Of a stretch of DNA of 64,000 nt, positions 2,481-30,101 are shown piece by piece (positions within the stretch are counted from its first letter, which is position 1; every line of letters begins with the position of its first letter). The DNA lies in contig NZ_CP109162.1 in NCBI RefSeq assembly GCF_035920445.1, positions 8,612,892-8,676,891 on the forward strand. Direction: 5' to 3'. The notes beneath the pieces were generated by a model. It was not told the DNA's origin, did no database searches, and was given only the letters and a program-made list of their open reading frames with translations. Origin of the DNA: Nocardia sp. NBC_01730 (GTDB lineage Bacteria; Actinomycetota; Actinomycetes; Mycobacteriales; Mycobacteriaceae). The translations under genes were made by a program, and so were the position numbers.

Positions 2481-2661
2481 GCTGACCGCCGCAGCCTCGG
2501 CAGGGCCTGACTGCGGCATGCGCTCGGTTAGGCCGAGGAGGGTGACGTGGGAGCTGAAGATTGTCCAGTGAGCAACGTTGATCGGCGCGGTATGCCCTGC
2601 GCCGGCACGGTGTGTGCCGCGTCGCATACCGTCTCCGACCGGAGGGCAATACTGTCTGAGC

Positions 2662-5433
2662 ATGGGCGAATCGACGATCGAGACGCAACAGGACGCCACC
2701 AGGCCGCTGCGCGACGACATCCGGTTTCTCGGTGGCGTGCTCGGTGACATCATCCGCGATCACGAGGGACCTGAGGTCTTCGACCTGATCGAGCGGGTGC
2801 GTATCGAGGCGTTTCGGGTGCGCCGCGAGGAGGTCGGACGCAGCGCCGTCGCGGAGATGCTCGACGGTGTCGACATCGCGGTGGCTCTTCCGCTCATCCG
2901 CGCGTTCAGTTATTTCGTGCTGCTGGCGAATCTGGCCGAGGATATCCAGCGTGATCGTCGCCGCGCCGCGCACGAGGCGGCCGGGGAGCCGCCGCAGGAT
3001 TCGTCGCTGGCGGCGACCTACCGCAAGCTGGACGCGGCCGCGCTGGACGGTGACCGGGTTGCCGATCTGCTGGCCGACGCGCTGGTGTCGCCGGTGATCA
3101 CCGCGCACCCGACCGAGACCCGCCGTCGCACGGTCTTCGACGTGCAGACCCGGATCACCGAGCTGATGCGCCTGCGCCAGCGCTACACCGAGACCGAGCG
3201 TGAGCGCGCCGATTTCGAGCAGCAGATCCGCCGACAGGTGTTGAGCCTGTGGCACACCGCGCTGATCCGGTTGGCGCGCTTGCGGATCCAGGACGAGATC
3301 TCGGTGGGTCTGCGCTACTACGACATCACCCTGTTCGACGTGATCCCGGCGATCAACGCCGAAGTGCGCGCCGCCCTGCGCTCGCGCTGGCCGGGAGTCG
3401 AGCTGCTGAGGTGCCCGATCCTGCGTCCCGGCTCGTGGATCGGCGGCGACCGCGACGGAAATCCTTTTGTGAACGCTGATGTCGTGCGGCAGGCGGCATA
3501 CCGGGCCGCGGCCGTCGCCTTCGAGCGCTATCTGCACGAGCTGGTCGAGCTGGAGAAATCGCTGTCGCTCTCGGCCCGTCTCGTCGCGGTGACGCCCGAG
3601 GTGGCCGCTCTCGCCGCGGCCGGTTACCGCGATCCGACCATGCACGCCGACGAGCCGTATCGCCGTGCACTGCACCATATTCGAGGGCGTGTGACCGCCA
3701 CTGTCAAGGCCGCGATCGGGGAGGTTCCGCCCGGTGGCCTCGACGTCGGGGCGCAGCCCTATCCGATGCCGCAGGCAGTTCTCGACGATCTCGACGCGGT
3801 GGACGCGTCGCTGCGCGGCAGCGGTGACGACTTGCTCGCCGACGACCGTCTCGCGCGGCTGCGCCACGCGGTGGAGACGTTCGGCTTCCACCTACAGGGT
3901 CTGGACATGCGACAGAATTCCGAGGTGCACGAGCAGGTGGTCACCGAGCTGCTGGCTTGGGCAGGCGTGCACCCGGACTACGCGAGTTTGTCCGAGGCGC
4001 AGCGGGTGGAGCTGCTCGCGGCCGAGCTGCGCACCCGCCGCCCGCTGCTCGGCCCGCATGCGCGGCTGAGCGAGCTCGCCGCGAAGGAACTCGACATTGT
4101 CCGCGCCGCACGGGATGCCGTGGCGGTCCTCGGTGCCGAGGCGGTGCCCAACTACGTGATCAGCATGTGCACGTCGGTCAGCGACCTGCTCGAGGCCGCA
4201 CTGTTGCTGAAGGAGGGCGGGCTGCTCGATCCCGGCGAGCCGGACGGGCCGCCGAGCTGCTCGGTGGGCATCGTGCCGCTGTTCGAGACCATCGAGGACC
4301 TGGGCGCCGGTGCCGCGACCCTGGCCGCGGCACTGGAGGTTCCGGTCTATCACGAGCTGGTGGCGGCACAGGGGATGCGCCAGGAGGTGATGCTCGGCTA
4401 CTCCGACTCCAACAAGGACGGCGGGTATCTGGCCGCCAACTGGGCGCTGTATCGGGCCGAGCTGGATCTGATCGAGGTCGCCCGCGAGACCGGAATCCGG
4501 TTGCGGCTCTTCCACGGTCGCGGCGGCACCGTCGGCCGGGGCGGCGGCCGCAGCTACGACGCCATTCTCGCCCAGCCCGCAGGCGCGGTGCGCGGCTCGC
4601 TGCGGCTCACCGAACAGGGCGAGGTGATCGCGGCCAAGTACGCGGAACCCGGTGCGGCGCATCGCAATCTCGAGTCGCTGATCGCGGGCACCTTGGAGTC
4701 GACGCTGCTCGACGTGGAGGGCCTCGGCCCGGACGCGGAGCCGTCCTACGGAATCATGGACGACCTGGCGGAGCGCGCCCGCGCGGCGTACGCCCGCCTC
4801 GTGCACGACACCCCGGGATTCGTCGAGTACTTCCGCCAGTCCACGCCGGTCGCCGAGGTCGGCGACCTGAACATCGGCAGCAGGCCCGCCTCGCGCAAGC
4901 CGACGAACTCGGTCGCCGACCTGCGTGCCATACCGTGGGTGATGTCCTGGAGTCAGGCGCGGGTGATGCTGCCCGGCTGGTACGGCACCGGGACGGCGCT
5001 GGAGGAGTGGATCGGCGGCGATCCGGAGCGCCTGGCGACCCTGGCCGATCTCTACCGTCGCTGGCCGTTCTTCCGTACGGTGCTGTCGAACCTGGCCCAG
5101 GTGATGGCCAAGAGCGACCTCGACATCGCCGCCCGCTACGCCGAACTGGTCGACGATGTGGCGTTGCGGGAGCAGATCTTCGGCATGATCCGCGACGAGC
5201 ACGCCCGCACCATCCGCATGCACGCCGCCATCACCGGCAACGACCACCTGCTCGCCGACAATCCCTCGCTCGCCGAGTCCATCCACAACCGCTTCCCCTA
5301 TCTGGAACCGCTCAACCAGATGCAGGTGGAACTGCTGCGCCGCCTCCGGGCCGGTGATGACTCGGAACTCGTGAGGCGAGGAATCCTGCTGACCATGAAC
5401 GGCCTGGCCACCGCGCTCCGCAACTCCGGCTGA
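2662..5433 (+). CDS. ppc: Phosphoenolpyruvate carboxylase
   Basis: 923 residues, the usual length. It carboxylates PEP with bicarbonate to oxaloacetate, refilling the TCA cycle in the cytoplasm. Hallmarks in order: the catalytic-His segment [13 protein letters not shown] near residue 147, [10 protein letters not shown] near 578, and the glycine-rich [13 protein letters not shown] loop near 617. The C-terminal tetrapeptide is RNSG instead of the usual QNTG; position -1 Gly and -3 Asn are kept. The start at ATG 2662 ([10 protein letters not shown]) was preferred to the longer frame from 2578, which adds a proline/cysteine-rich, non-family N-terminus. It stands alone, convergent with the next gene. 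Confidence 0.97.
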
Positions 5434-5456: not shown

Positions 5457-5864
5457 TCAAGGGGTGACGATGGCGACGGCGTCGATCTCGACGAGCATCT
5501 CGGGGCGGGGGAGTCCGGTGAAGACGGTGGTGCGGCTGGGCAGCACGCCGTCGGTGGTGTGCGCGGTGACGAATTCGCCGTAGGCGTTGTTCATCGCGGC
5601 GAAATCGTCGCGGGTCGTGAGGTAGACGCGCAGCATGACGACGTCGTCGAACCCGGCGCCGCTCGCCTCGACGATCGCCTTGACGTTCCGCAGCGTCCGG
5701 GTCGTCTGCGCGGCGACGTCCCCCGGGTGCAAATACTCGCCGCTGGCCGGGTCCACCGGACCCTGGCCGGAGACCTGCACGAACGGGCCCTTGCGCACGC
5801 CCTGGGAGAAGGTGTGCGCGGGTGCCGGCGCGTCGGTGGTGCGGATGGCGATCTTCTCGCTCAT
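5457..5864 (-). CDS. ridA: RidA family enamine/imine deaminase
   Basis: 135 residues beginning MSEKIAIRTTDAPAP. The fold signature is FVQVSGQGPVDPASG early, then VMLRVYLTTRDDF and a C-terminal RPEMLVEIDAVAI, as in YjgF/RidA proteins. RidA proteins hydrolyse reactive 2-aminoacrylate-type enamines released by PLP dehydratases. Its ATG overlaps the stop of the IclR gene (ATGA), so the two are co-transcribed. That places it in a cluster with a PLP deaminase (7841-9145), where an enamine intermediate would be expected. The link to that enzyme is inferred from position. Confidence 0.9.
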   Translation of the reverse strand: MSEKIAIRTTDAPAPAHTFSQGVRKGPFVQVSGQGPVDPASGEYLHPGDVAAQTTRTLRNVKAIVEASGAGFDDVVMLRVYLTTRDDFAAMNNAYGEFVTAHTTDGVLPSRTTVFTGLPRPEMLVEIDAVAIVTP

Positions 5865-6637
5865 GGTCGGCCTTTCGTCGCGGTGGTGACCCGGCTGGGA
5901 ATCCAGCCGAGTTCGGCGGAGATGGCCTCGGCCGCCGCGTGGACCCGCGGCAGTTCGGCCAGCACCTGGTCGTAGTCGAGCACCATGTCCGGCACCGACA
6001 TGGACACCGCCGCGACCACGGCGCCGGTACCGTCGCGGACCGGAACGCCGATGCAGTTCACGAAGCTCTCGTGCTCTTCGTGGTCTTCCGCATGGCCCTG
6101 TGCCGCAACCTTTTCCAGTTCCCGCACATAGTGCTCGGGTGTGCGGATGGTGCGCTCGGTGAAGGGGTGATAGTCGATCTTCTCGGCGATCGCCTGCCAC
6201 TCCGCGCGCGGCTGCGACGACACCAGCACCTTGCCGACGGCGGTGCAGTGCAGCGGGGCCGGGCGTCCGATGCGCGAGTACATGCGCACGCTCTGGGTGG
6301 CATCGAGTTTGTCGATGTAGACCGCCTCGCCGGACTCGTAGGTGGCGAGATGGATCGTCTGTTTCGTCGCGGCGTTGAGCGCGGCGAGGTGCGGGCGCGC
6401 CAGGGTTCGCACGTCGCGCTGCTCGAGCGTGCGGTTGGCCAGTTCGAACAGCCGCGAACCGAGCATGTACCGGTGCTGGCTGTCGTGGGTGACGAACCGC
6501 TGCGCCTCCATGGTCTGCAACAGGCGAAGCACGGTCGACTTGTGCACGCCCAGCTGTGCCGCCAACTGCTCCAGCGACCGGGAGTCCTCACCCAGCGACA
6601 CGAGGATGGTCAACGCACGCGACAAACTCTGGCTCAT
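5861..6637 (-). CDS. IclR family transcriptional regulator
   Basis: 258 residues. The N-terminal winged helix-turn-helix (LEQLAAQLGVHKSTVLRLLQ, residues about 22-41) is followed by an IclR effector domain with RPAPLHCTAVGKVLV and FVNCIGVPVRDGTGAVVAAVSMS. It overlaps the end of the kinase gene by 4 bp and the start of ridA by 4 bp, making the minus-strand operon kinase-iclR-ridA. It probably controls the divergent promoters around 7705-7840, where a perfect 10+2+10 palindrome lies. The effector is likely a sugar-acid intermediate of the cluster such as 2-keto-3-deoxygluconate (inference). Confidence 0.93.
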   Translation of the reverse strand: MSQSLSRALTILVSLGEDSRSLEQLAAQLGVHKSTVLRLLQTMEAQRFVTHDSQHRYMLGSRLFELANRTLEQRDVRTLARPHLAALNAATKQTIHLATYESGEAVYIDKLDATQSVRMYSRIGRPAPLHCTAVGKVLVSSQPRAEWQAIAEKIDYHPFTERTIRTPEHYVRELEKVAAQGHAEDHEEHESFVNCIGVPVRDGTGAVVAAVSMSVPDMVLDYDQVLAELPRVHAAAEAISAELGWIPSRVTTATKGRP

Positions 6638-7704
6638 GACGCTCTACTCTCGGTGACCACGGCGTCGCTGTAATACAGCTCGGCCCAGGTGGATTCGTCG
6701 ATGTCGGCAAGCCGCTCCAGTACTGGGCGCGGCGGGAGCTCGGCCACGTCACCGGATCCGGTGAGGGCGGCCGCGGCGCACAGGTGCCCGAGGCGCAGGC
6801 GCTGCTCCAGCGGCCTGCCGTGCAGGAGCGCGGCCAGGTAGCCGCCCGCGAACGCGTCTCCGGCCCCGATGCGCTCGGTGACGTCGAGAGTCAGTGCGGG
6901 CACCTCGACGCGCCGCGTTCCGTCGAAGCCGGTGACCGTGTGCCTGTCGTTCTTCACGATCAGCTGTCGCGGCTCGGGGAACAACGCGCGCAACTCGTCG
7001 GCGTGACCGGTGCCGAACACCGCGAGTGCCTCGTCGGCGCCGAGAAACACCACATCACTGCCGCGCACGTGGTGCGCGAGTATCTCGGCCGCCGTGCTGC
7101 GGCCGGTCCACAACGCGGGGCGGTAGTTCAGGTCGAAGCTCACGAGCCTGTCGTCGCGGGCGAGGGCGATCAGCGCCTCGGTGAGTTCGGTCGCCGATTC
7201 CGACAGCGCCGTGGTGATGCCGGTGAAGTGGATCAGTTCGCAGCCTTCGAGCAGCTGGGCGGCGGGCGGTACGGCGAGATCGGCCGCCGACAGCGCGCTG
7301 GCCGCGGAGCCGGTGCGGTAGTACAGCATTCGGCTCGCCCGCTCGGCAAGATCGGTGGCCCGGCCGGAGCCGCCGCCGCGTTCCTTGACGTACACCGCCG
7401 TCGGCCGCCGCGGATCGGTGCCAACCGCCGACACGTCGACGCCGCGCTCGGCGAGGTGGTGCACGAGATACCGCCCGAACCCATCGTCGCCGACTCGGGA
7501 CAGCCAGGCGGTGGCCACACCCAGCTGGGTCAGCACGGTGGCCGCGTTCGCCTCGGCGCCGCCCGCGGTTCGCTTGAAGGTCTCGGACTCCTCCAGCGGG
7601 CCCGGCCGGGCCACCAGCACCGCGAGTCCTTCGCCGACGGTCACCGCCCGCGGGCGCGGCGACGGTCGAACGCCCGTCGGCCCGGGCGGCTCGAGCCACG
7701 TCAC
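6634..7704 (-). CDS. kdgK: PfkB family sugar kinase, probable 2-keto-3-deoxygluconate kinase
   Basis: 356 residues from GTG 7704. The start is decided by a strong AGGAG six bases upstream; a longer frame from ATG 7740 lacks one. PfkB signatures are GGAEANAATVLTQLG near the N-terminus and GAGDAFAGGYLAALL near residue 280, containing the catalytic Asp. It would phosphorylate a six-carbon keto-deoxy acid with ATP. The neighbouring KDPG aldolase gene makes 2-keto-3-deoxygluconate the natural substrate, but PfkB specificity cannot be read with certainty from sequence. It is the first gene of the minus-strand operon with the IclR regulator and ridA. Confidence 0.85.
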   Translation of the reverse strand: MTWLEPPGPTGVRPSPRPRAVTVGEGLAVLVARPGPLEESETFKRTAGGAEANAATVLTQLGVATAWLSRVGDDGFGRYLVHHLAERGVDVSAVGTDPRRPTAVYVKERGGGSGRATDLAERASRMLYYRTGSAASALSAADLAVPPAAQLLEGCELIHFTGITTALSESATELTEALIALARDDRLVSFDLNYRPALWTGRSTAAEILAHHVRGSDVVFLGADEALAVFGTGHADELRALFPEPRQLIVKNDRHTVTGFDGTRRVEVPALTLDVTERIGAGDAFAGGYLAALLHGRPLEQRLRLGHLCAAAALTGSGDVAELPPRPVLERLADIDESTWAELYYSDAVVTESRAS

Positions 7705-7768
7705 ACCGATCTCCTCTCTGCTCTTGCGGCCACCGGCCATCCCGTGCAGAATAACCAGACCAAACACG

Positions 7769-7790
7769 ATGTGCAACAAGTGTTGCACAT
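7769..7790. promoter_or_regulatory. Perfect palindrome, probable IclR operator between divergent operons
   Basis: Half-sites ATGTGCAACA and TGTTGCACAT are exact reverse complements separated by AG. The site lies between the kinase start (7704) and the deaminase start (7841). A second perfect palindrome, TATTGCAATA, overlaps its end at 7790-7799 and could be part of the plus-strand promoter. Position and symmetry fit an operator of the adjacent IclR protein (inference). Confidence 0.7.
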
Positions 7791-7840
7791 ATTGCAATAG
7801 CTATCGGATATGTGTACGGGCCTGGCCTGGAAGGAATGCC

Positions 7841-9145
7841 GTGTCGATCGACCAAGCAGTCGTAGCAGCACTCGGGGACCGCACCATCGGGCCCGAGCAC
7901 AAAGGCCTGCCGCCGGCGTCCTGGGGGCACACCGTGCGCGAATTCCTGGCGACCGCCCCGACTCTCGACCAGCTGGAGACACCGATCCTGACCGTCGACC
8001 GGTCGGCCGTCTCGGCGAACGTCGCGATAATGGCCGACTGGGTGAGCGCGGCAGGCGTGCGGTTGGCGCCACACGGCAAGACCACGATGGCCCCGCAGCT
8101 GTGGGCCGAACAGCTGGCCTCCGGGTCGTGGGGGATCACCCTGGCGACCATCTGGCAGACGCAGGTCGCGCGATCCTTCGGCGTCGCGCGGGTGCTGCTG
8201 GCCAACGCGTTGGTCGATCCGGTCGGACTGCATTGGGTGGCGGCGGAATCGGCGAACGATCCGTCGTTCGAGTTCGTCTGCTGGGCCGACAGCGTCGAAA
8301 CGGTCGCGCTGATGCAGGAGCATCTGAGCACGGCCCCAGGTGCGGAGCGGGTCCGTGTGCTGGTGGAACTCGGTGGGCCGCATGGCCGTACCGGCGCGCG
8401 CACCGTCGACCAGGCGCTTGCCGTGGCGGAGGCGATCGATGCGGCGTCGCGACTGGCGCTGGCCGGGGTGGGCGGTTATGAGGGCGCGCTCGCGCACGAC
8501 CGCACCCCGGACGGCATCCGCGCGGTGCGCGACTACCTGGACGAACTCGCGCGCCTGCACCGCGAGATCGACGCCGCCGGACTGTACCGAAGCCCGGCGA
8601 TCGTCACCGCGGGCGGCAGCGCCTACCCCGACCTGGTCGTCGAACGCCTCGCCCTGCTCGCCGACGAGCAGGGCGCCTCGGGTGTCTCGACCACGGTCGT
8701 CCTGCGGTCCGGGGCCTATCTCATCCACGACGACGGCTTTTACGCGGGTATTTCACCCTTGGCGGCGCCGCGAGGCGAGAAGCCGCTGCGCTCGGCGATG
8801 CACGGCTGGGCGCGCACACTCTCGCGCCCGGAGCCCGGGCTCGCTCTGCTGGACGCGGGGAAGCGCGATCTTCCCTTCGATGAGGGGCTTCCGGTCCCGC
8901 AACGGGTTGCGGGACCGGAAGGCACTCCACTGGACCCGGCCGCCACGGTGTCGGCGCTCAACGACCAGCACACCTTCCTGCGGCTACCGGATGGCGACGC
9001 GACGGAACTGCCGATCGGCACGGTGGTGCGCCTCGGCCTGTCCCATCCGTGCACCGCCTTCGACAAATGGCGGCTCATTCCCGTGATCGACGACGCCGAC
9101 GCTGCGACGCCGCGCGTCGTCGACTTCCTGCACACCTTCTTCTGA
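7841..9145 (+). CDS. PLP-dependent amino acid deaminase/dehydratase, D-threonine-aldolase/D-serine-dehydratase fold
   Basis: 434 residues from GTG 7841, preceded by AAGGAA. The N-terminal alanine-racemase-like barrel has the PLP lysine in RLAPHGKTTMAP. The C-terminal domain ends with LSHPCTAFDKWRLIPV, whose His and Cys match the zinc ligands of DSD1-type D-serine dehydratases. Relatives include D-threonine aldolase and D-glucosaminate dehydratase. With a deacylase, KDG-type kinase, KDPG aldolase and GntP permease alongside, the best guess is conversion of D-glucosaminate to 2-keto-3-deoxygluconate plus ammonia (inference). A perfect 15-bp hairpin lies inside the coding sequence at 8888-8921. 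Confidence 0.85.
   Translation: MSIDQAVVAALGDRTIGPEHKGLPPASWGHTVREFLATAPTLDQLETPILTVDRSAVSANVAIMADWVSAAGVRLAPHGKTTMAPQLWAEQLASGSWGITLATIWQTQVARSFGVARVLLANALVDPVGLHWVAAESANDPSFEFVCWADSVETVALMQEHLSTAPGAERVRVLVELGGPHGRTGARTVDQALAVAEAIDAASRLALAGVGGYEGALAHDRTPDGIRAVRDYLDELARLHREIDAAGLYRSPAIVTAGGSAYPDLVVERLALLADEQGASGVSTTVVLRSGAYLIHDDGFYAGISPLAAPRGEKPLRSAMHGWARTLSRPEPGLALLDAGKRDLPFDEGLPVPQRVAGPEGTPLDPAATVSALNDQHTFLRLPDGDATELPIGTVVRLGLSHPCTAFDKWRLIPVIDDADAATPRVVDFLHTFF
8888..8921 (+). other. Perfect 15-bp inverted repeat inside the deaminase coding sequence
   Basis: CTTCCGGTCCCGCAA (8888-8902) is exactly complementary to 8907-8921, with a four-base CGGG loop. It falls in frame over residues about 350-361 (LPVPQRVAGPEG). 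Such a strong stem inside a gene could pause transcription or be a small inserted repeat; there is no T-tract. Confidence 0.8.
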
Positions 9146-9158
9146 TGAGCCGAAACCC

Positions 9159-10772
9159 ATGACCGACTTACTGTTCCGCGCCGTCGACATCATCGACGGC
9201 ACCGGCGCGCCACGGTTCCGCGGCGACGTCCTCGTCGAGCGAGGGCGCATCGCGCGGATCACCGATCCCGGCGCTGTTTCCGACGCCGATCAGGTCGTGG
9301 ATGCCGGACCCGGCGCGGTGCTGTGCCCAGGCTTCATCGACATGCATGCCCATTCGGATCTGCACTTGCTCACCGAACCGGGGCACTTCCCGAAGATCAG
9401 CCAGGGCGTCACCACCGAGGTGCTCGGGCAGGACGGGTTGTCCTACGCCCCGGTCGACGACACCGCCCTCGCGGTGGTGCGTCGCCAGATCGCGGGCTGG
9501 AACGGCAATCCCGCCGACCTGGACTTCTCCTGGCGCACCGTCGCGGAATACCTGGACCGGCTCGACCATGGCATCACGCCGAACGCCGCCTACCTGGTAC
9601 CGCAGGGCACGCTGCGGTTGCTGGTCGTCGGCGCCGAACAGCGCGCGGCCACCCCGGCCGAGATCCAGCGCATGCGGGAGCTGCTCGCCCAGGGGTTGAG
9701 CGAAGGCGCGGTCGGCATGTCGAGCGGACTCACCTACACGCCAGGAATGTATGCCGACACCAGCGAATTGGCCGCGCTGTGCGAGGTGGTCGCCGACTCC
9801 GGCGGGTTCTACGCGCCGCACACCCGCTCCTACGGCGCGGGCGCGCTGGCGGCCTACGCCGAGATGATCGGACTGGCCCGGACCACCGGGTGCGCTCTGC
9901 ATCTCACACACGCCACGATGAACTTCGGCGTGAACAGAGGGCGCGCACCGGAATTCCTGGCGCTCGTCGACGCGGCGCGGGCCGAGGGCTGTGATATCAC
10001 GCTGGACACCTATCCGTATTTGCCCGGCTCGACCACGCTCTCGGCGTTGCTGCCGAGCTGGGCGATGTCGGGTGGTCCGGACGCCGCGCTGGCGCGGCTG
10101 GAGGACCCCGCCGCTCGGGCGCGCATCACGGTGGACGTCGACGTGCGGGGCTCCGACGGCTGCCACGGCGTCACCGTCGAATGGGAGACCATCCAGATCA
10201 GCGGCGTCGGCAACGCGACGTTGGACGAGTATGTCGGCAAGACGGTCGACCAGATCGCCGCCGACCGCGGTATCGCGCCGGTGGAGGTGTTCTTCGATCT
10301 GCTGCGCCGCGATCAGCTGGCCACCACGATTCTCCAGCACGTCGGGCACGAGGAGAACGTGCGCGCGATCATGGTGCATCCCGGGCATATGGGAGGAAGC
10401 GACGCGCTGCTCGTCGGCGACCGCCCACATCCGCGGGCGTGGGGCACGTTCCCGCGGTACCTCGGCCGCTATGCGCGCGATCTCGGCGTGCTTGGGCTGG
10501 AGGAATGCGTGCACCACCTGACCGGACGGCCCGCCGACCGGCTCCGGCTGCGCGACCGCGGCCTCGTCCGGCCCGGCAACGCCGCCGATCTCGTGGTGTT
10601 CGATCCGGCGACCGTCGCCGACACGGCGACCTTCGACAACCCCAGACAGCAGGCGCGCGGCATCCGGCATGTGCTCGTGAACGGCGAGTTCGCGATCGAG
10701 AACGGCGCACCCACCGGTCATCTCGCAGGCCGCACGCTGCGCAGGGATGCCGCACGGAAGGAGACGGTGTGA
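9159..10772 (+). CDS. N-acyl-D-amino-acid deacylase (D-aminoacylase family amidohydrolase)
   Basis: 537 residues, typical length. It belongs to the metal-dependent amidohydrolase superfamily: FIDMHAHSDLHLL (HxH metal site), LHLTHATMNFGVNRG, and the late GGSDALLVGDRPHPRAWGTF segment that marks D-aminoacylases. The family removes acyl groups from N-acyl-D-amino acids. It starts 13 bp after the deaminase gene and overlaps the aldolase start by 4 bp, so it belongs to the plus-strand operon. In this context it could deacetylate N-acetyl-D-glucosaminate, a D-configured N-acetylated amino acid (inference). Confidence 0.9.
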   Translation: MTDLLFRAVDIIDGTGAPRFRGDVLVERGRIARITDPGAVSDADQVVDAGPGAVLCPGFIDMHAHSDLHLLTEPGHFPKISQGVTTEVLGQDGLSYAPVDDTALAVVRRQIAGWNGNPADLDFSWRTVAEYLDRLDHGITPNAAYLVPQGTLRLLVVGAEQRAATPAEIQRMRELLAQGLSEGAVGMSSGLTYTPGMYADTSELAALCEVVADSGGFYAPHTRSYGAGALAAYAEMIGLARTTGCALHLTHATMNFGVNRGRAPEFLALVDAARAEGCDITLDTYPYLPGSTTLSALLPSWAMSGGPDAALARLEDPAARARITVDVDVRGSDGCHGVTVEWETIQISGVGNATLDEYVGKTVDQIAADRGIAPVEVFFDLLRRDQLATTILQHVGHEENVRAIMVHPGHMGGSDALLVGDRPHPRAWGTFPRYLGRYARDLGVLGLEECVHHLTGRPADRLRLRDRGLVRPGNAADLVVFDPATVADTATFDNPRQQARGIRHVLVNGEFAIENGAPTGHLAGRTLRRDAARKETV

Positions 10773-11398
10773 CCACCGCTGCGAGCGCCGTGGACGTGAT
10801 ACGGGCCGATCGGGTGCTCAGCGTGGTCCGGGCGCCGGAGATTCCCGATCCGGTGGCGCTGGCGGATACGCTGGCGCGCTCCGGAATTCGCGCGGTCGAA
10901 CTCACCTTCACCACGCCGGGCGTGCTCGGCTATCTCGCCGCCGCGGCCGAGGTGCAGGAGGCGGTGGTCGGCGTCGGCACCGTGACGACCGCCGAACAGG
11001 CCGAGGCCGCTATCGACAGCGGAGCCCGATTCCTGGTCACCCCTGGCCTGCGCGCGGACGTCGCCGCTGTCGCGGTGCGTCGCGACATCCCCGTCGTCCT
11101 GGGCGCGTTCACTCCCACCGAGGTCATGCAGGCGCTCGATCTCGGCGCGGCAGCGGTGAAGATCTTCCCGGCCAGGGCCCTCGGCCCCGGCTACCTGAAG
11201 GACCTGCGCGGTCCTTTCCCCGACGTGGCGTTCATCCCTTCCGGTGGCGTCAACGTGGGCAATGCCGCCGAATTCCTCGCTTGCGGTGCTGTCGCCGTGA
11301 GCGCGGGAACCGATGTCGTCGCCCCCTCCGATGTCGCCGCGGGCCGCTGGTTCGCCATCGCCTCGCGTGCGGCGTCGTTCGTTCGATCCATGAATTGA
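10769..11398 (+). CDS. eda: 2-dehydro-3-deoxyphosphogluconate (KDPG) aldolase
   Basis: 209 residues from GTG 10769, overlapping the previous stop (GTGA), with AAGGAG five bases upstream. It cleaves KDPG to pyruvate and glyceraldehyde-3-phosphate. Class I aldolase features are present: VELTFTTPG with the catalytic Glu, VGVGTVT, VTPGL, and the Schiff-base lysine in GAAAVKIFPA. Length and motifs fit Eda-type aldolases well. It supplies the final step for the kinase product of the divergent operon. Confidence 0.92.
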   Translation: MTTAASAVDVIRADRVLSVVRAPEIPDPVALADTLARSGIRAVELTFTTPGVLGYLAAAAEVQEAVVGVGTVTTAEQAEAAIDSGARFLVTPGLRADVAAVAVRRDIPVVLGAFTPTEVMQALDLGAAAVKIFPARALGPGYLKDLRGPFPDVAFIPSGGVNVGNAAEFLACGAVAVSAGTDVVAPSDVAAGRWFAIASRAASFVRSMN

Positions 11399-11407
11399 GA
11401 GGTACCC

Positions 11408-12862
11408 ATGGGCGCCACCGTCGACTGGCTGCGCACCACCACCCCAGGGCTGCTGGTGCTCTGCGGTCTCGCGATTGCCGTACTACTGCTCGCCATCATC
11501 AAGCTCAAGCTGGAGCCGTTCATCGCGCTGCTGCTGACCGGACTGGGGCTGGCGTTGGCCGCAGGGCTGCCCGTCACCAAGATCGTCGGCACCGTGATCA
11601 AACCCGGAGAGTCGTTGCTGGAGACCGGGTTCGGCGGAATTCTCGGGCATATCGCGGTCATCATCGGGCTCGGCACGGTGCTCGGCGCGATCCTCGAACG
11701 CTCCGGTGGCGCGGATGTCTTGACCGGCAGGCTGCTGAATCTGTTCGGCGACAAGGGCGCTCCGGTCGCCATGGGCCTGCTCGGGCTGATCTTCGGCATC
11801 CCGGTCTTCTTCGACATCGGCATCTTCGTGCTGGCGCCGCTGATCTACGTGGCCGCCAAACGAGGGGGTCGGTCGCTGGTGCTCTACGCCATGCCGATGC
11901 TGGCCGGATTGTCCATGACGCACGCGTTCCTGCCGCCGCACCCCGGTCCGGTCGCGCTCGGCGGGCTGCTCAATGTGAGCCTCGGCTGGTTGATCCTGAT
12001 GGGATTCGTCTGCGGTATACCGGGATTCATCGCTGCCGGTCTGGTGTGGGGGACTTACATCGGCAAGCGGATGCAGGTCGAGGTACCCGACGAGTTCCTG
12101 GTACGGCCCGAGGACAAGGTCGCCGCGAACGCCGGTGACGGGCCTGGCGCGCTCCAGGCGGCGGGGGCGACGAGCACCGAGGTGCGGCCGCCGTCGGTCT
12201 GGGTGATCGGGGCCATTATCGCGATCCCACTGCTGCTGATTCTCGGCGCCACCTTCGGCAGCCAGCTGTTGGACGGTGGCTCCACGCTTCTTTCGGTGCT
12301 GACCTTCCTCGGCACGCCGGCGGTCGCGCTGCTCATTGCGGTGCTCGTCGCCTTCTTCGTCCTCGGTGTCCGGCGCGGATCCACCGTGCAGGAACTGAGC
12401 ACCCTCACCGCGGAGTCGCTACGGCCGGTCGGCATGCTGCTGCTGGTGGTCGGCGCGGGCGCGTTCTTCGGAAAGGTCATCTCCGCCACCGGGATCGGCA
12501 CCGCGCTGGCCGACACCATGTCCGCGGCCGGACTTCCGGTGATCGTGCTGGCCTATCTGATCAGCTGCGGGCTGCGCATCGCGCAGGGCTCGGCCACGGT
12601 CGCCATCGTGACCACCGGCGGCATCGTCGCCCCACTGGTCGCGGGGCAGGGCTACTCGCAGGTGGCCATTGCTCTGATCGCCATGGCCATCGCGGCGGGC
12701 TCCATCATCCTCAGTCACGTCAACGACGGCGGGTTCTGGATCATCGCGAAGTACTTCAACCTGACGGTGAAGCAGACGCTGCAGTCCTGGACCGTGCTCG
12801 AAACGGTGCTGTCGGTGGTGAGTTTCGCGGTGGCCGCGATTCTGTTCGCGCTCGTCAGCTGA
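11408..12862 (+). CDS. GntP family gluconate/sugar-acid:H+ symporter
   Basis: 484 residues with about 12-14 hydrophobic helices. Diagnostic GntP segments are IPVFFDIGIFVLAPLIY and MTHAFLPPHPGPVA, plus SHVNDGGFWII near the end. The family imports gluconate and related sugar acids with protons. It is the last gene of the plus-strand catabolic operon and most likely imports the operon's substrate: gluconate, D-glucosaminate or N-acetyl-D-glucosaminate. The gene overlaps by 8 bp the end of the convergent TetR gene. Confidence 0.93.
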   Translation: MGATVDWLRTTTPGLLVLCGLAIAVLLLAIIKLKLEPFIALLLTGLGLALAAGLPVTKIVGTVIKPGESLLETGFGGILGHIAVIIGLGTVLGAILERSGGADVLTGRLLNLFGDKGAPVAMGLLGLIFGIPVFFDIGIFVLAPLIYVAAKRGGRSLVLYAMPMLAGLSMTHAFLPPHPGPVALGGLLNVSLGWLILMGFVCGIPGFIAAGLVWGTYIGKRMQVEVPDEFLVRPEDKVAANAGDGPGALQAAGATSTEVRPPSVWVIGAIIAIPLLLILGATFGSQLLDGGSTLLSVLTFLGTPAVALLIAVLVAFFVLGVRRGSTVQELSTLTAESLRPVGMLLLVVGAGAFFGKVISATGIGTALADTMSAAGLPVIVLAYLISCGLRIAQGSATVAIVTTGGIVAPLVAGQGYSQVAIALIAMAIAAGSIILSHVNDGGFWIIAKYFNLTVKQTLQSWTVLETVLSVVSFAVAAILFALVS

Positions 12863-13415
12863 GCGCGCCGCCGACCAGCGCGCGTACCAGCCGGTTCAAC
12901 GCGCCGTATGGGTCGAAGTCCGGCGCGGGGCTCACCACCTGGTGCAGGATCGCGCCGTCGAGGTAGTCGGCGAGAATCTTCGCCACCGCCCGCTCGGCGC
13001 CGACGCTCGCCAGCAGGGTCGCCGCCCATTCGGTCAGCCGAGGGTGCCCGCGTCGCACGATGTCCTGCAGCGCGGGCACCGTCTGCGCTTCCAGGAGAAG
13101 GGCGTATCTGGCCGGTGTCCCGGTGCGATCGGTCGCTACCGCGTGGACGACGAAGCCCGCCATGGCGTCGACGAGTTCGGCGAGCGTGCGCGGCGTGGGT
13201 ATCCGGTTCAGCATCGCCCAGTCCGCGTGGTCGCGTTCCTCGAGCCGCTCGGCGATGCCGATCAGCAGCGCCTCGCGGGTGCGGAAGTAGTTGGAAGCCG
13301 ACCCGCTCGGCATGGCGGCGGCCTTGTCGACGGCGCGGTGGGTGAGCGCGCGCGTGCCGTGCGATCCCAGCAGGTCGATCGCCGCGTCCAAGAGGAGTTC
13401 GCGCTTCGTGGGCAC
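12855..13415 (-). CDS. TetR family transcriptional regulator
   Basis: 186 residues from GTG 13415. The N-terminal helix-turn-helix reads RELLLDAAIDLLGSHGTRAL then AVDKAAAMPSGSASNYFRTR, the standard TetR arrangement; the remaining two thirds would bind an effector and dimerise. It converges with the GntP gene and overlaps it. Its own promoter region carries a short inverted repeat and a second half-site copy, suggesting autoregulation. The next gene downstream of that region is the MFS exporter gene, but a regulatory link is only a guess. Confidence 0.9.
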   Translation of the reverse strand: MPTKRELLLDAAIDLLGSHGTRALTHRAVDKAAAMPSGSASNYFRTREALLIGIAERLEERDHADWAMLNRIPTPRTLAELVDAMAGFVVHAVATDRTGTPARYALLLEAQTVPALQDIVRRGHPRLTEWAATLLASVGAERAVAKILADYLDGAILHQVVSPAPDFDPYGALNRLVRALVGGALS

Positions 13416-13423
13416 CTGTTGAT

Positions 13424-13480
13424 ACTACATCGGTAGTGACGTGTGCCGCGGCGATGTCGCTCGACACCGCATCAGTAGTG
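13424..13480. promoter_or_regulatory. Possible TetR operator pair upstream of the TetR gene
   Basis: ACTAC-ATCG-GTAGT forms a perfect short inverted repeat at 13424-13437, nine bases upstream of the TetR start. ATCGGTAGTG (13429-13438) recurs as ATCAGTAGTG at 13471-13480, 42 bp away or about four helical turns. This spacing would suit two regulator dimers on one DNA face. Confidence 0.45.
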
Positions 13481-13736
13481 CTGTGTGGGCTCGCCCCTGT
13501 CGATGGCGGTCGAAGGCGGCGACTCGACCCGCTACGACCGCGAACGCAGGGTACGTACCCAGATGATCGCGACCCGTCGCGCCGCATCGGCGTGGTGGCG
13601 CAACCCTCGTTCGCGCCCGCAGTCGCGATCCGCAACATTCCGGATTTCCGGCCTCCGTGCAGCTCAAATCGATTGCGCCGATGCTGGATTGGATGAGAAG
13701 CCAGCTGTTTTCGGCGATGACATCGCAGTCACCGCG

Positions 13737-13999
13737 TTGGCTGGACGTGGGTGGGTTGTTATGGTGTGGGCGTGAATTCTCCGGAGTCGGCCAGACGGTA
13801 GCCGTCCGGCCTGTGTGCTGGGCGGCGTTGTGAGTGCGGGGCCCGCCGGTCGTTGAGCGACTGATGACGGGTGGGGTATTTCGCAACGCCGGGCGATGTC
13901 GGTTTCCTGCCGTCGGGTGATGTTTCGCCCGATTCTGCGACGATCTCGGGTGCCGTGCTGTGCGCGTGGCACCCCTTGTATCCGGGGAGTTTTCTTTCT
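13737..13999 (+). promoter_or_regulatory. Promoter and structured leader of the MFS exporter gene, with possible leader peptide
   Basis: A candidate promoter has TTGGCT (13737-13742), a 17-base spacer and TATGGT (13760-13765). Just downstream a GTG at 13772 opens a nine-codon peptide, MNSPESARR, ending at TAG 13801, followed by the near-complement of its last codons. Further on, GGGTGCC (13948-13954) can pair with GGCACCC (13968-13974), while CCCC (13972-13975) can instead pair with GGGG (13984-13987), which is the ribosome binding site. The two stems exclude each other, as in a drug-induced attenuator. The stretch 13481-13736 holds no recognisable gene. Confidence 0.5.
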
Positions 14000-15196
14000 A
14001 TGCCCATTGTGGTGTTCGTGCTGGCTGTTGCGGTCTTCGCGCAGGGCACGTCCGAGTTCATGGTGTCAGGGTTGCTGGAGCAGATCGCTGCCGACGTCGG
14101 GGTCTCGCCCGGGACCGCGGGATTGCTGACGTCGCTGTTCGCGGCCGGCATGGTCCTCGGGGCGCCGGTGATGGTGATGGCGGCAGGCCGATTGCCGGTC
14201 AGGTATTCGGCAGCAGCGTTTTTGGCGTTGTTCGGTGTGGCTCATGTCGTCGGTGCTGTTACCGCGGATTTCGCGGCGCTGCTGGCGACCCGGGTCGTGG
14301 CGGCGGTCGCCAATGCTGGATTCTTGGCGACAGTGCTGGCTGCTCTGCCGCGGTTGGTCGGCCCGGCCGTGGTCGGACGCGCCACCTCGGTGGTCGTGTC
14401 CGGGGTGACTGTCGCCTGCATCGCCGGTGTGCCCGCCGGGACATTGCTGGGACAGGTCTGGGGATGGCGTTCGGCGTTCTGGGCCGTTGCCATTGTCAGC
14501 GGAGCGGCGCTCGTGCCGGTGTGGGCGATGGTTCCTCGTGACGTGCGCGAGCGTGACCGCCCGGACACGCGGGGTCCGTCGATGTGGCGCGAGTGGGCCG
14601 TAGTGGTCAGACAGCCGGTCGGTGGTGTCGTCATCGTCGGTGTGCTGGTCAACGCGGCGACGTTCGCCGGTTTCACCTACCTGGGCACGATCACTGCCGG
14701 TATTCCCGAGGCGAGTGGCCGTTGGGTTCCGGTCGTGCTCGCATTGTTCGGCATCGGTTCGTTCGTCGGTGTGACTCTCACCGGCCGCTACATCGATCGC
14801 TATCGCAGGCGGATCGTCACTGTCGGAACGGTGGTGCTCGTCGGGGTCTGGCTGCTTGCCGCTCTGACCGCGCACACGCTGACCGGCGTGTCGATCATGG
14901 CGACGGTGTCGGGTGCGGTCGCGTTCGGCGTCGGGTCGACCCTGATCGCGACGATTATGTGGAGCGCTGCGCCTACCGGGCCGCGTATCGCGGGTGCGCT
15001 GGCCACCACGGCCTTCAACATCGGTGCCGTCCTCGGCCCCGCCACTGCCGGCATCGTCGTCGACCACACCGACCACCCCACCACGGCGCTGTGGTGCAGC
15101 AGCGCCTTCACGTTCGCCGCGGTGGCTGTCGTCCTGGTCGGTCGTCGTCTACGCACCGCGACGCCGGTCGGGGAGGTGCGTGTCGATGCACGCTGA
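14000..15196 (+). CDS. MFS drug exporter, Cmx/Cml chloramphenicol-efflux type
   Basis: 398 residues with about 12 transmembrane helices. The start MPIVVFVLAVAVFAQGTSEF with an acidic residue in helix 1, then ITAGIPEASG and repeated loop residues, are typical of the DHA1 subgroup that includes the actinobacterial chloramphenicol exporters Cmx and Cmr. ATG 14000 is chosen because GGGGAG precedes it and the longer frame from 13871 adds a non-family extension. The long structured leader upstream suggests induction by a ribosome-binding drug. The substrate is inferred from family resemblance only. Confidence 0.82.
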   Translation: MPIVVFVLAVAVFAQGTSEFMVSGLLEQIAADVGVSPGTAGLLTSLFAAGMVLGAPVMVMAAGRLPVRYSAAAFLALFGVAHVVGAVTADFAALLATRVVAAVANAGFLATVLAALPRLVGPAVVGRATSVVVSGVTVACIAGVPAGTLLGQVWGWRSAFWAVAIVSGAALVPVWAMVPRDVRERDRPDTRGPSMWREWAVVVRQPVGGVVIVGVLVNAATFAGFTYLGTITAGIPEASGRWVPVVLALFGIGSFVGVTLTGRYIDRYRRRIVTVGTVVLVGVWLLAALTAHTLTGVSIMATVSGAVAFGVGSTLIATIMWSAAPTGPRIAGALATTAFNIGAVLGPATAGIVVDHTDHPTTALWCSSAFTFAAVAVVLVGRRLRTATPVGEVRVDAR

Positions 15197-20656: not shown

Positions 20657-22991
<2,335 letters not shown>

Positions 22992-22995
<4 letters not shown>

Positions 22996-23923
22996 CCAGT
23001 CAGGTGCTGCACACGCTCTCCGCACTGGACAAGGCGCACGTCCTGGCCGACGCGCTGCCGTGGCTGCAGAGGTTCCGGGACAAGATCGTCGTGGTGAAGT
23101 ACGGCGGCAACGCCATGATCGACGAGGAACTCAAGCGGGCCTTCGCCGCCGACATGGCCTTTCTGCGCACGGTCGGCGTGCACCCGGTGGTGGTGCACGG
23201 GGGCGGACCGCAGATCAGCGCGATGTTGAAAAAGCTCGGCATGCAAGGGGAATTCCGCGGCGGATTCCGGGTGACCACACCCGAGGTGATGGACGTGGTG
23301 CGGATGGTGCTGTTCGGTCAGGTCGGCCGCGAACTGGTCGGGTTGATCAACGCGCACGGCCCGTACGCCGTCGGCACCTCCGGTGAGGACGCGGGGCTGT
23401 TCACCGCGACCCGCCGCACCGTCGACGTGGATGGCGAGCCGACCGACATCGGCTTGGTCGGCGACGTCACCGCGGTGAACCCGGACGCCGTGCTCGACTT
23501 GATCGGCGCGGGCCGTATCCCGGTGGTATCGACGATCGCGCCGGACGCCGACGGCGTGGTGCACAACATCAACGCCGACACCGCCGCCGCCGCGCTCGCC
23601 GAGGGGATCGGGGCCGAGAAACTGGTGGTGCTCACCGACGTCGAGGGCCTGTATACGAACTGGCCGGACCGGTCGTCGCTCGCGACGCGCATCGACACGG
23701 CCGAGCTGACGGAGTTGCTCCCCAGCCTGGATGCGGGCATGGTGCCCAAGATGGAAGCCTGCCTGCGCGCCGTGCGAGCCGGGGTGCCGACCGCCCATGT
23801 GATCGACGGTCGCGTCCCGCACGCCGTGCTGCTGGAACTGTTCACCGGAGAAGGAATCGGAACGATGGTGACGCCCGCCCCGCTCATCCCGAACGGGTCG
23901 CGCCCACTGGACGGAACGAAACA

Positions 23924-23927
<4 letters not shown>
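22992..23927 (+). CDS. argB: Acetylglutamate kinase
   Basis: 311 residues from ATG 22992, overlapping the argJ stop. It phosphorylates N-acetylglutamate. Amino-acid-kinase motifs: [13 protein letters not shown] at about residue 33, [14 protein letters not shown], and VLTDVEGLY. The N-terminal helix before the core ([20 protein letters not shown]) is the type found in hexameric, arginine-inhibited enzymes, so feedback control by arginine is likely. Confidence 0.97.
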
Positions 23928-26073
<2,146 letters not shown>

Positions 26074-26242
26074 GCGAGTGCGGCGAGCGAACCACCCGCA
26101 CGGCGCGTCCGTGCCCAGCCGGGCGAGGTGGAGTCGTGAGTGAGCTGAACTGTGGGCGCGGCCGAGCATCGCTCGGTCACGACGGGGCCGAGCGTCAGCG
26201 ACAGTCGCGCAGGACAGAGCCGAGCATCGGCGAGGTGTGGTC
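26074..26242. repeat. Intergenic region with short GAGCGA-type repeats between argF and argR
   Basis: The gap contains near-copies of the same words: GCGAGGTGGAGTCGTGAG (from about 26124) and GCGAGGTGTGGTCGTGAG ending at 26247, and GCCGAGCATCGCTCGG and GCCGAGCATCGGCGAG, the first palindromic. I recall similar GTGAGCGAG-rich intergenic repeats in Nocardia genomes, but cannot check. The second copy supplies the argR ribosome binding site and start codon. Confidence 0.45.
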
Positions 26243-26758
26243 GTGAGCGTTCCGCAGTCCAAGCAGGGTAGGGGCGGTGCCGCGATTGCCCGCACCAGGG
26301 CCGGGCGGCAGTCGCGCATCATCGAGCTGCTGGCTGCGCACCCGGTGCGCAGCCAGACGGAGCTGGCCGGGCTGCTCGCCGCCGAGGGGATCGAGACCAC
26401 TCAGGCGACGCTGTCGCGGGACTTGGACGAACTGGGTGCGGTGAAGCTGCGGGCCGCCGACGGCGGTGTGGGCGTCTACATCGTTCCCGAGGACGGCAAC
26501 CCCGTTCGCGGCGTGATCGGCGGCACCGATCGGCTGTCGAAGCTGCTCGGCGACCTCCTGGTCTCCACCGACGCCAGCGGCAATATTGCCGTCTTGCGCA
26601 CCCCGCCCGGCGCGGCCCACTTCCTGGCCAGCGCCCTGGACCGCGCCGCCTTGCCGTATATCGTCGGCACCATCGCGGGCGACGACACCATCGCTGTCAT
26701 CGCCCGCGAACCCCTGACCGGCGCCGAGGTCGCCGCGAAGATCGAACAACTGGCCTGA
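26243..26758 (+). CDS. argR: Arginine repressor
   Basis: 171 residues from GTG 26243, with GAGG upstream; GTG 26237 is also in frame. The N-terminal winged helix ([20 protein letters not shown], then [18 protein letters not shown]) matches the DNA-binding domain of ArgR. The C-terminal part ends with [20 protein letters not shown], the hexamerisation and arginine-binding core with its Asp pair. With arginine bound it should repress the operators before argC and argG found in this window. Confidence 0.96.
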
Positions 26759-26864
26759 GCCGTCGAGCTCGCTGCGGCATGCAGGATCAATGGCCCGCTG
26801 GCTGAACTGGCCCTCTCCTGGAGCTAGGTGTACTCACCCGCCGGTGGGCCGCCGCGGGCCACAC

Positions 26865-27145
26865 TCACTCGGCGAGCGCCCGCACCTTTTCGAAGCGGTC
26901 GACGATCCGTGTGAGAGTGTCGATATTCGCGAGCGCGTCCGGGACCCTGCGGACCAGCCGAGTCCATCTACCGGTGGCCTATCGAGGTCGGGTTCGGATT
27001 GGTCGATGACTTCATCGACATCGGCGGGTTCCGCGTACGGCCTCTCGGTGTCGCTGAGTAAGGCTCGGAGCGCGGTCAATTCGCTACGCAGCGACGGTGA
27101 GGCAAAGGCACGGCTGCCGGGTTCGTCAGTTCGGTGCGGTCGCAA
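26865..27145 (-). pseudogene. Possible frameshifted fragment of an unidentified gene
   Basis: On the minus strand, LRSELTALRALLSDTERPYA then EPADVDEVIDQSEPDLDRP continues, after a one-base shift near 26965, as TRLVRRVPDALANIDTLTR then IVDRFEKVRALAE and a stop. Both pieces look protein-like and run in the same direction, but neither has a clear start and I do not recognise a family. The rest of 26759-27160 shows nothing else. Confidence 0.3.
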
Positions 27146-27159
27146 ACGCTAGCCCCCGG

Positions 27160-27193
27160 TTGTGAATGGGATTGCATCGTCGTGCATAATCAT
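27160..27193 (+). promoter_or_regulatory. ArgR operator and promoter of argG
   Basis: The block 27161-27193 matches the argC operator at 30 of 33 positions, including TGTGAATG, the central TGCAT-CGTC-GTGCA palindrome with one mismatch, and -10-like CATAAT (27185-27190). A transcript would start near 27197, leaving a leader of about 118 nt before the argG start, unlike argC. Confidence 0.78.
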
Positions 27194-27314
27194 TTGTAGA
27201 ACGACGCGGGTGCGCCGCGGCTGGTCCCGAGGAGTCGGGGCCGGGCCGCGCCCACCGCTCAGACACCCGCCATACTGCTGGTACACCTACCGAAAACCGA
27301 GGAGCACACAGAAC

Positions 27315-28517
27315 ATGTCCGAGCGCGTCGTACTCGCCTACTCCGGTGGGCTGGACACCTCCGTGGCGATCAGCTGGATCGGCAAGGAGACCGGCGCCGA
27401 GGTGGTGGCCGTGGCCATCGACCTCGGCCAGGGTGGCGAGGACATGAACGTGGTGCGTCAGCGAGCGCTGGACTGCGGCGCCGTCGAGGCGATCGTGGTC
27501 GACGCCCGTGACGAGTTCGCCACCGAGTACTGCCTGCCCACCATCCAGGCCAACGCCCTGTACATGGGCGAGTACCCGCTCGTCTCGGCGATCAGCCGCC
27601 CGCTGATCGTCAAGCACCTGGTCGAGGCCGCCAAGTTCCATGGGGCCAGTACCGTCGCGCACGGCTGCACCGGCAAAGGCAACGACCAGGTCCGCTTCGA
27701 GGTCGGCATCGGCGCGCTCGCGCCCGACCTGAACGTGATCGCCCCGGTCCGCGACTACGCATGGACCAGGGAGAAGGCCATCGCCTTCGCCGAGGAGAAC
27801 GCGCTGCCGATCAACGTCACCAAGAAATCCCCGTTCTCCATCGACCAGAACGTCTGGGGCCGTGCCGTCGAGACCGGCTTCCTCGAGGACCTGTGGAATG
27901 CTCCGACGAAAGACGTCTACGACTACACCTCCGACCCGACCGTCAACTTCGAGGCGCCGGACGAGCTCATCGTCACCTTCGACAAGGGCGTGCCGGTGGC
28001 CATCGACGGACGCCAGGTCAGCGTGCTCGAGGCGATCGTCGAACTGAACAACCGCGCGGGCCGCCAAGGCGTCGGCCGCCTCGACATGGTCGAGGACCGG
28101 TTGGTCGGCATCAAGAGCCGCGAGATCTACGAGGCGCCCGGCGCCATCGCGCTGATCACCGCGCACCAGGCCCTCGAAAACGTCACCATCGAGCGTGAGC
28201 TGGGCCGCTACAAGCGGCAGGTCGAGCAGCGCTGGGGCGAGCTGGCCTACGACGGCCTGTGGTTCTCCCCGCTCAAGCGGGCTCTGGACGCCTTCATCGG
28301 CGACACCCAGCAGCATGTCTCCGGCGACATCCGGATGGTCCTGCACGGCGGCTCCGCCGTGGTCAACGGCCGTCGCTCCGAGCAGTCGCTGTACGACTTC
28401 AACCTGGCCACCTACGACGAGGGCGACACCTTCGACCAGTCGCTGGCCAAGGGCTTCGTCCAGATCCACGGCCTGTCCTCCAAGGTCGCCGCCCGCCGCG
28501 ACCTGAGCCAGAAGTAA
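27315..28517 (+). CDS. argG: Argininosuccinate synthase
   Basis: 400 residues from ATG 27315, with GGAG about ten bases upstream; the longer open frame from 27162 would begin inside the operator. It couples citrulline and aspartate using ATP. The ATP-pyrophosphatase P-loop is [17 protein letters not shown] (residues about 5-21), followed by [14 protein letters not shown]. Length and motifs are standard for the actinobacterial type. It has its own ArgR-controlled promoter and is followed by a terminator hairpin. Confidence 0.97.
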
Positions 28518-28523
28518 TCCCAC

Positions 28524-28555
28524 GCGCGCCGGTGCACGGACGTGCACCGGCGCGC
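28524..28555 (+). terminator. Hairpin terminator after argG
   Basis: GCGCGCCGGTGCACG (28524-28538) is the exact reverse complement of 28541-28555, separated by two bases. The stem is very GC-rich and lacks a T-tract, starting 7 bp after the argG stop. It may limit read-through into argH. Confidence 0.8.
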
Positions 28556-28649
28556 TGTCGGCTGCCGCCACAGTCGCAGTCCGGGTGCCTCCAGAACCCG
28601 AGGGGCACCCAACGCGGGACCTGAACGCAAATCCTCATCACCCAACTAG

Positions 28650-30101
<1,452 letters not shown>

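Follow-up and report, generated by a model that had tools for sequence, protein, structure and literature searches.

The terminal 64 kb of the 8.68 Mb single-contig genome of Nocardia sp. NBC_01730 (this whole stretch of 64,000 nucleotides is hereafter called the window) carries, at positions 5457-12862, seven genes in two divergent groups. Judged from sequence, this locus would be an actinobacterial version of the catabolic pathway for oxidised chitin, whose substrate is N-acetyl-D-glucosaminate (GlcNAc1A), and we put the probability of this reading at roughly 0.78. In the proposed scheme, a GntP-family permease would bring in free GlcNAc1A, a deacylase of the D-aminoacylase fold would convert it to D-glucosaminate and acetate, and a pyridoxal phosphate (PLP)-dependent deaminase would then yield 2-keto-3-deoxygluconate (KDG) and ammonia, with a RidA-family protein perhaps aiding the clearing of the enamine or imine. 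A PfkB kinase would phosphorylate KDG to 2-keto-3-deoxy-6-phosphogluconate (KDPG), from which the aldolase Eda would produce pyruvate and glyceraldehyde-3-phosphate, while an IclR-family protein would govern both divergent operons via one local operator. We infer the enzyme activities, the transport substrate, the exact sugar acid, and the operator-binding protein together with its effect.

Such chemistry is known from the ong cluster of Pseudoalteromonas prydzensis. In this bacterium, OngB deacetylates GlcNAc1A, OngC deaminates D-glucosaminate to KDG, and KdgK phosphorylates KDG, and deletion of ongB, ongC, ongD (which encodes a RidA protein) or kdgK in each case abolishes growth on GlcNAc1A (PMC9537276). 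OngD is essential for an unknown reason, and kdgA is added in the Vibrio, Klebsiella and Serratia versions (PMC9537276). The original prediction had proposed the same sequence of reactions for the Nocardia locus: its deacetylation, deamination to KDG, phosphorylation and use of RidA match the published chemistry, in which OngB, OngC and KdgK were assayed and the aldol cleavage was inferred (PMC9537276). Its statement that a D-glucosaminate dehydratase shares the PLP fold holds as well, solely through OngC as that text describes it. The route itself is not new, the ong pathway being already published.

Gene content, conservation and operator of the cluster

The seven genes and their divergent grouping, as originally predicted, are borne out by reading frames and Pfam profiles; identities were assigned with Pfam profiles and NCBIfam curated cut-offs, and starts were placed from reading frames and start codons. 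On the reverse strand lie the gene of the RidA-family protein, the OngD counterpart (5457-5864; PF01042, Ribonuc_L-PSP, E 6e-30; start near 5864, overlapping the IclR stop), that of the IclR-family regulator (5861-6637; PF01614, E 2.5e-47, and PF09339, giving an HTH and a C domain) and that of the PfkB sugar kinase, the proposed KDG kinase (6634-7740; PF00294, E 1e-40; likely start near 7740). The forward strand encodes the fold-type III PLP deaminase, a putative D-glucosaminate deaminase (7841-9145; PF14031, D-ser_dehydrat, E 3e-20; probable start near GTG 7841), the D-aminoacylase-fold deacylase, a putative GlcNAc1A deacetylase (9159-10772; PF07969, Amidohydro_3, E 4e-35), the KDPG/2-keto-4-hydroxyglutarate aldolase Eda (10769-11398; Pfam E 2e-44; its frame shares 4 bases with that of the deacylase) and the GntP-family permease, the candidate GlcNAc1A importer (11408-12862; Pfam E 2.5e-120).

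Only two of the seven genes pass an NCBIfam curated cut-off, namely Eda (TIGR01182, 173.7 bits, cut-off 156.05) and GntP (TIGR00791, the gluconate:H+ symporter subfamily, 375 bits, cut-off 292.75). The kinase reaches 159.8 bits with its top model, NF040938 (KDG/2-keto-3-deoxygalactonate (KDGal) kinase), below the 400-bit cut-off, and the top model of the IclR protein, KdgR, is also under its cut-off. Since the scores shown for RidA, IclR, PfkB, deaminase and deacylase lie below these cut-offs, we infer their specific names. The deaminase translation contains PHGKTTMAPQL, which we take to be the PLP lysine motif, and SHPCTAFDKW, presumably a further functional stretch; GAGDAF in the kinase and KIFPA in the aldolase are likewise assumed to hold residues needed for function.

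The homologous cluster of P. piscicida served as the ong reference. Both clusters comprise a D-aminoacylase-fold deacylase, a fold-type III PLP deaminase, RidA and a PfkB KDG-type kinase, and these four are encoded together in Nocardia, as expected of an ong-type locus. The Nocardia cluster has GntP and IclR and no TonB receptors, whereas ong has an SSS symporter and MurR/RpiR; GH20 belongs to the ong system but none was matched in the Nocardia host genome. In a census by similarity to the P. prydzensis genes, the pathway was complete in Gammaproteobacteria and in a single Achromobacter (PMC9537276). Searches by OngB similarity can fall short, since in an Aeromonas proteome study the search for OngB/OngC genes gave distant or no matches (PMC11653859). 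Within the literature searched, which left subscription journals mostly outside, no actinobacterial GlcNAc1A pathway was found in the available text (including PMC13106269, PMC6097792 and PMC11653859).

The arrangement of the cluster exceeds chance. It was followed in 80 loci, the best 80 of 431 deacylase relatives, which were picked by deacylase, are partly cut by contig ends and do not constitute a census; they span 23 genera, and 37 of them come from Streptomyces. The deaminase gene lies upstream of the deacylase gene on the same strand in 80/80 loci, within 150 bp in 75; it is farther upstream in four (L231, with the RidA gene between, L248, L277 and L294), and in L279 the distance was not measurable in frame. 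Matches were obtained to IclR in 72 of the 80 loci, RidA in 71, PfkB in 70, GntP in 55, Eda in 23 and GH20 in 6, the Streptomyces loci having GntP in 24/37 and an Eda match in 4/37. When 20 Nocardia loci were fetched and searched by tblastn with the seven window proteins, nine had the identical divergent seven-gene order, and the remaining 11 had the deaminase and not the full set. Beyond Nocardia, tblastn recovered the same order in L057, a locus of a different genus within the family, and in L027, on a plasmid of Arthrobacter, and the annotation of a Tsukamurella plasmid shows a matching layout. The closest deacylase relative (96%) belongs to Nocardia sp. 2YAB30, in line with a Nocardia host; Streptomyces was considered as the source and rejected on this ground.

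In eight Nocardia loci (L074, L075, L076, L080, L082, L083, L088 and L092), a lone deaminase is found beside phosphoenolpyruvate (PEP) carboxylase, with an epoxide-hydrolase gene flanking its other side in 5/8. This spot on the PEP carboxylase side is the place of the whole cluster in the window and in some relatives, and the deaminases of L074, L075 and L080 branch beside that of the window. The simplest reading is that the rest of the pathway was lost in place and the deaminase kept; alternatively, the pathway could have been gained around a lone deaminase. In the window, the PEP carboxylase gene (2578-5433) adjoins the cluster directly upstream, and in L063 a PEP carboxykinase gene lies near the cluster.

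The divergent promoter carries an operator, RTTGCA-N5-TGCAAY (7782-7798), that is conserved in relatives. It occurs exactly in 43/80 loci, in a region that runs from 320 bp before the deaminase gene to 60 bp inside it, with three exact copies elsewhere in 1.6 Mb, and with at most one mismatch in 74/80 upstream regions (single-base shuffled expectation 0.0). All 11 Nocardia genomes searched have it once at the cluster (reversed-pattern control, 0-1 per genome); further exact matches number 1-2 per genome, 14 in all, the second one of the host lying outside the window at G000:C1:3630229-3630245. A 22-bp palindrome overlaps the operator (7769-7790) and has no second match in the host genome when up to 3 mismatches are allowed, its reversed-pattern control giving 3 matches per strand; the relatives that were scanned do not conserve it in this form. 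These data suggest that the operator marks a local regulon, and linkage points to the IclR protein as its likely binder. A regulon including the genes of lytic polysaccharide monooxygenases (LPMOs) was considered and rejected, as the palindrome had no extra match in the host genome within 3 mismatches and exact operator copies were at least 23 kb from LPMO genes in the 10 LPMO-positive genomes checked.

Possible links to oxidised chitin in relatives

An oxidised-chitin substrate of the actinobacterial version is supported by fusion with and linkage to GH20, by linkage to a lactonase and by co-occurrence with LPMOs, all in relatives of the window cluster. Indeed, in Microbacterium a window-type deacylase and a GH20 beta-N-acetylhexosaminidase are fused within one frame of 1103 residues (L060:6542-9853, reverse strand), with no signal peptide evident by eye. 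Its neighbours are a deaminase, a RidA gene, two ROK-family genes and a glucosamine-6-phosphate isomerase-family gene. Both domains are present in 120/120 listed relatives of the fusion, these being the best 120 of 259 passing the E-value under a ranking that favours fusions; the named organisms among the 120 are nearly all Microbacterium. The RidA encoded at this locus (L060:11027-11416, forward strand) is 84% identical to the window RidA, while the deacylases are just 54% alike.

Among the six loci with a GH20 match, three were read, and sugar-ABC genes (family-1 binding protein and permease) lie downstream in 3/3. A seven-bladed lactonase is found in two of the three (L243, Amycolatopsis, and L231, Saccharopolyspora), and this linkage fits the pathway because GlcNAc1A and its lactone are in equilibrium (PMC12017989). 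A more distant variant, L058, has a CBM_5_12 protein, an SBP_bac_5 ABC system and a ROK gene within 20 kb.

Co-occurrence was assessed in 118 Nocardia genomes, a sample of a larger group, with presence called at E up to 1e-30 for the deaminase and up to 1e-120 for the deacylase. The deaminase was found in 84 genomes, the deacylase in 54 and an AA10 LPMO in 40. The deacylase is present in 35/40 LPMO-positive versus 19/78 LPMO-negative genomes (Fisher p 5e-11), and the association holds with genome size as covariate (p 4e-8). A tree of 106 genomes was built from rpoB with its adjoining DNA, 12 having been dropped for lack of a usable rpoB and 22/106 being represented by less than 3.2 kb. On this tree, the dependent model of Pagel was better (likelihood ratio 19.4, p 6e-4), the ratio being a lower bound since the search was short and from one start. 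The observed odds ratio was reached in 0/2000 tree simulations with the LPMO evolving independently and in 0/2000 further simulations with the deacylase evolving independently, where only simulations with a trait count within 30% of the observed were retained. GH19, whose mostly partial matches make it usable as a neutral trait only and not as a chitinase control, was unassociated (16/54 with deacylase versus 19/64 without; Fisher p 1, simulation p 0.61). In the 64 genomes without deacylase, the deaminase was untied to the LPMO (3/30 versus 2/34, p 0.66).

Relation to OngB and OngC and weighing of rival substrates

The solved relatives of the deacylase are 1m7j, 3gip and 9kb1, the last being the OngB known as PpOngB, and the deacylase and the deaminase are 33% and about 33% identical, respectively, to their ong counterparts. 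The alignment with PpOngB shows that His68, His70, His222, His252, Asp368, Tyr194, Tyr285 and Arg379 are kept; hence metal-site His222 and His252 and catalytic Asp368 are retained, while the metal ligand Cys97 is replaced by Asp. Of the 21 PpOngB residues named in PMC12017989, 20 match the 9kb1 chain, Cys79 of the paper being Pro in the chain. These replacements hardly vary within the window type: as judged by pattern, with the remaining loci not read, the GQDG metal site is found in 77/80 loci, PHxRSY in 76 and HAxxN in 77. GQDG is no marker of substrate, since two haloarchaeal records and one Cetobacterium also have it, and no cluster of this kind is annotated around their D-aminoacylase genes.

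Phylogeny separates the two types. PpOngB (9kb1/9kb3; PMC12017989) is an amidohydrolase like the window deacylase but differs from it in Cys97, Lys254, Ser292 and Glu226 and in its branch: in deacylase trees OngB sits beside the D-aminoacylase of the Alcaligenes type, apart from the window type, and an approximately unbiased (AU) test rejects uniting 15 window-type deacylases with two OngB and 9g5m in a single clade (p 2e-30). Among solved relatives, 1m7j, the D-aminoacylase of Alcaligenes faecalis, scores best (about 40% identity across the aligned region), but unlike the window deacylase it has a Cys metal ligand and a hydrophobic pocket (PMC12017989). Similarly, the D-serine deaminase 3gwq, the top solved relative of the window deaminase (E 1e-70), clusters with OngC, apart from the actinobacterial deaminases, and joining OngC to 17 of these is rejected (AU p 2e-6). 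On these trees the window deacylase is not an orthologue of OngB, nor the deaminase of OngC, so that the function, if it is the same, would have been reached twice. The locus would then probably represent a known pathway in a new, convergent actinobacterial variant. We lean, with rather less confidence than for the substrate, towards an assembly of the GlcNAc1A pathway in Actinobacteria independent of marine ong, from other branches of D-aminoacylase (with an Asp ligand) and PLP deaminase, the Microbacterium GH20-deacylase being bifunctional.

Several observations weigh against a GlcNAc1A pathway. Among the residues of OngB, Ser292 and Gln298 determine specificity, and Lys254, Glu226, Ser290 and Ser292 contact the substrate (PMC12017989); in the window deacylase Ser292 is replaced by Thr, Lys254 by Thr, Glu226 by Tyr, Ala256 by Asn and Ser290 by Gly, and Gln298 pairs with Gly in a gapped stretch. 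As the specificity residues of OngB are not conserved, they do not support GlcNAc1A as the substrate of the deacylase. The 19.9 kb around the Microbacterium fusion contain no relative of PfkB, Eda or GntP. In addition, GH20 is restricted to 6/80 loci, four from Amycolatopsis, one from Saccharopolyspora and one from Actinokineospora. The LPMO is missing in 19/54 deacylase-bearing Nocardia genomes (present in 35/54), no operator copy lies near an LPMO gene in 10 LPMO-positive genomes (the nearest at 23 kb, in G334), and the independent-pairs test, with too few informative pairs, was not significant (median p 0.125), though its direction was favourable (about 4.3 versus 0.1 of 14 supported pairs). 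Moreover, since AA10 enzymes act on chitin or cellulose (PMC6097792), the presence of an LPMO is no proof of chitin.

The host genome itself gave no match to LPMO_10 (PF03067), GH18, GH19 or GH20; GH3, which was not searched, also includes actinobacterial GlcNAcases (PMC6097792). A chitin-degrading context in the host itself was thus not borne out. As none of the four searched families was found, the cluster in this strain would be confined to scavenging free acid that other organisms release. GntP is a family of monomer transporters, and use of acid freed by others would therefore fit the permease.

It is possible, if improbable, that the cluster serves N-acyl-D-amino acid catabolism, in which GntP would import N-acetyl-D-serine or N-acetyl-D-threonine, the deacylase and the PLP enzyme would yield a 2-keto acid, and the kinase and aldolase would serve otherwise. 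The top solved relatives, D-aminoacylases and a structure named D-serine deaminase, speak for it, and OngC itself deaminates D-serine and D-threonine (PMC9537276). A related Neorhizobium deacylase lies near a D-amino acid dehydrogenase gene, 30/118 Nocardia genomes have the deaminase without the deacylase, and the eight lone-deaminase loci were read without any other cluster gene. This explanation leaves no role for PfkB, present in 70/80 loci, or for Eda, present in 23/80; it is further opposed by the GH20 fusion and linkage, and by the LPMO tracking the deacylase and not the deaminase alone.

Slightly less probable still is that the substrate is another N-acetyl-hexosaminate, for instance N-acetyl-D-galactosaminate, or free D-glucosaminate, and not GlcNAc1A from chitin. 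Promiscuity, known among GH20 enzymes as well as KDG/KDGal kinases, counts for this explanation, as do the specificity residues unlike those of OngB and the host lacking the four searched chitinolytic families. So does a Comamonas plasmid (L023:17-11850), which combines RidA, deaminase and deacylase with an annotated KDGal kinase and 2-keto-3-deoxy-6-phosphogalactonate aldolase. The aldolase of the window, by contrast, exceeds the eda cut-off, the LPMO association weighs against this explanation, and free D-glucosaminate would give a dedicated deacylase nothing to do. The Comamonas plasmid region also encodes dipeptide-type ABC transport and may serve a different N-acetylhexosaminate. A GlcNAc1A pathway is retained as the preferred reading of the Nocardia cluster.

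Flanking genes and implications

Just past GntP, at 12855-15196, a TetR regulator is divergent from an MFS pump that scores above the Cmx/CmrA chloramphenicol-efflux cut-off of NCBIfam. Farther on, at 20678-30101, semialdehyde dehydrogenase, class-III aminotransferase, and argininosuccinate synthase and lyase genes resemble an arginine biosynthesis region.

Within the literature searched, what appears to be new is the actinobacterial form of the pathway, the fusion protein, the operator, the LPMO association and the apparent convergence, the chemistry being already known. Actinobacteria have a reputation for degrading chitin and possess AA10 LPMOs (PMC6097792), yet the literature searched gave no account of how they use the oxidised ends. 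If the proposed pathway is correct, soil actinobacteria would own an IclR-controlled route for oxidised ends generated by LPMOs of their own or of neighbouring organisms. Strains without recognised chitinolytic genes, such as the host, would then be monomer scavengers. In Microbacterium, a single protein would hydrolyse GlcNAc-GlcNAc1A through its GH20 domain and deacetylate the released acid. Actinobacterial proteins now annotated as "D-aminoacylases" and "alanine racemases", for instance on the Tsukamurella plasmid, would have to be renamed. Collectively, the gene set, the operator, the fusion and the co-occurrence pattern provide enzymes open to direct test and probably an example of pathway assembly by convergence.

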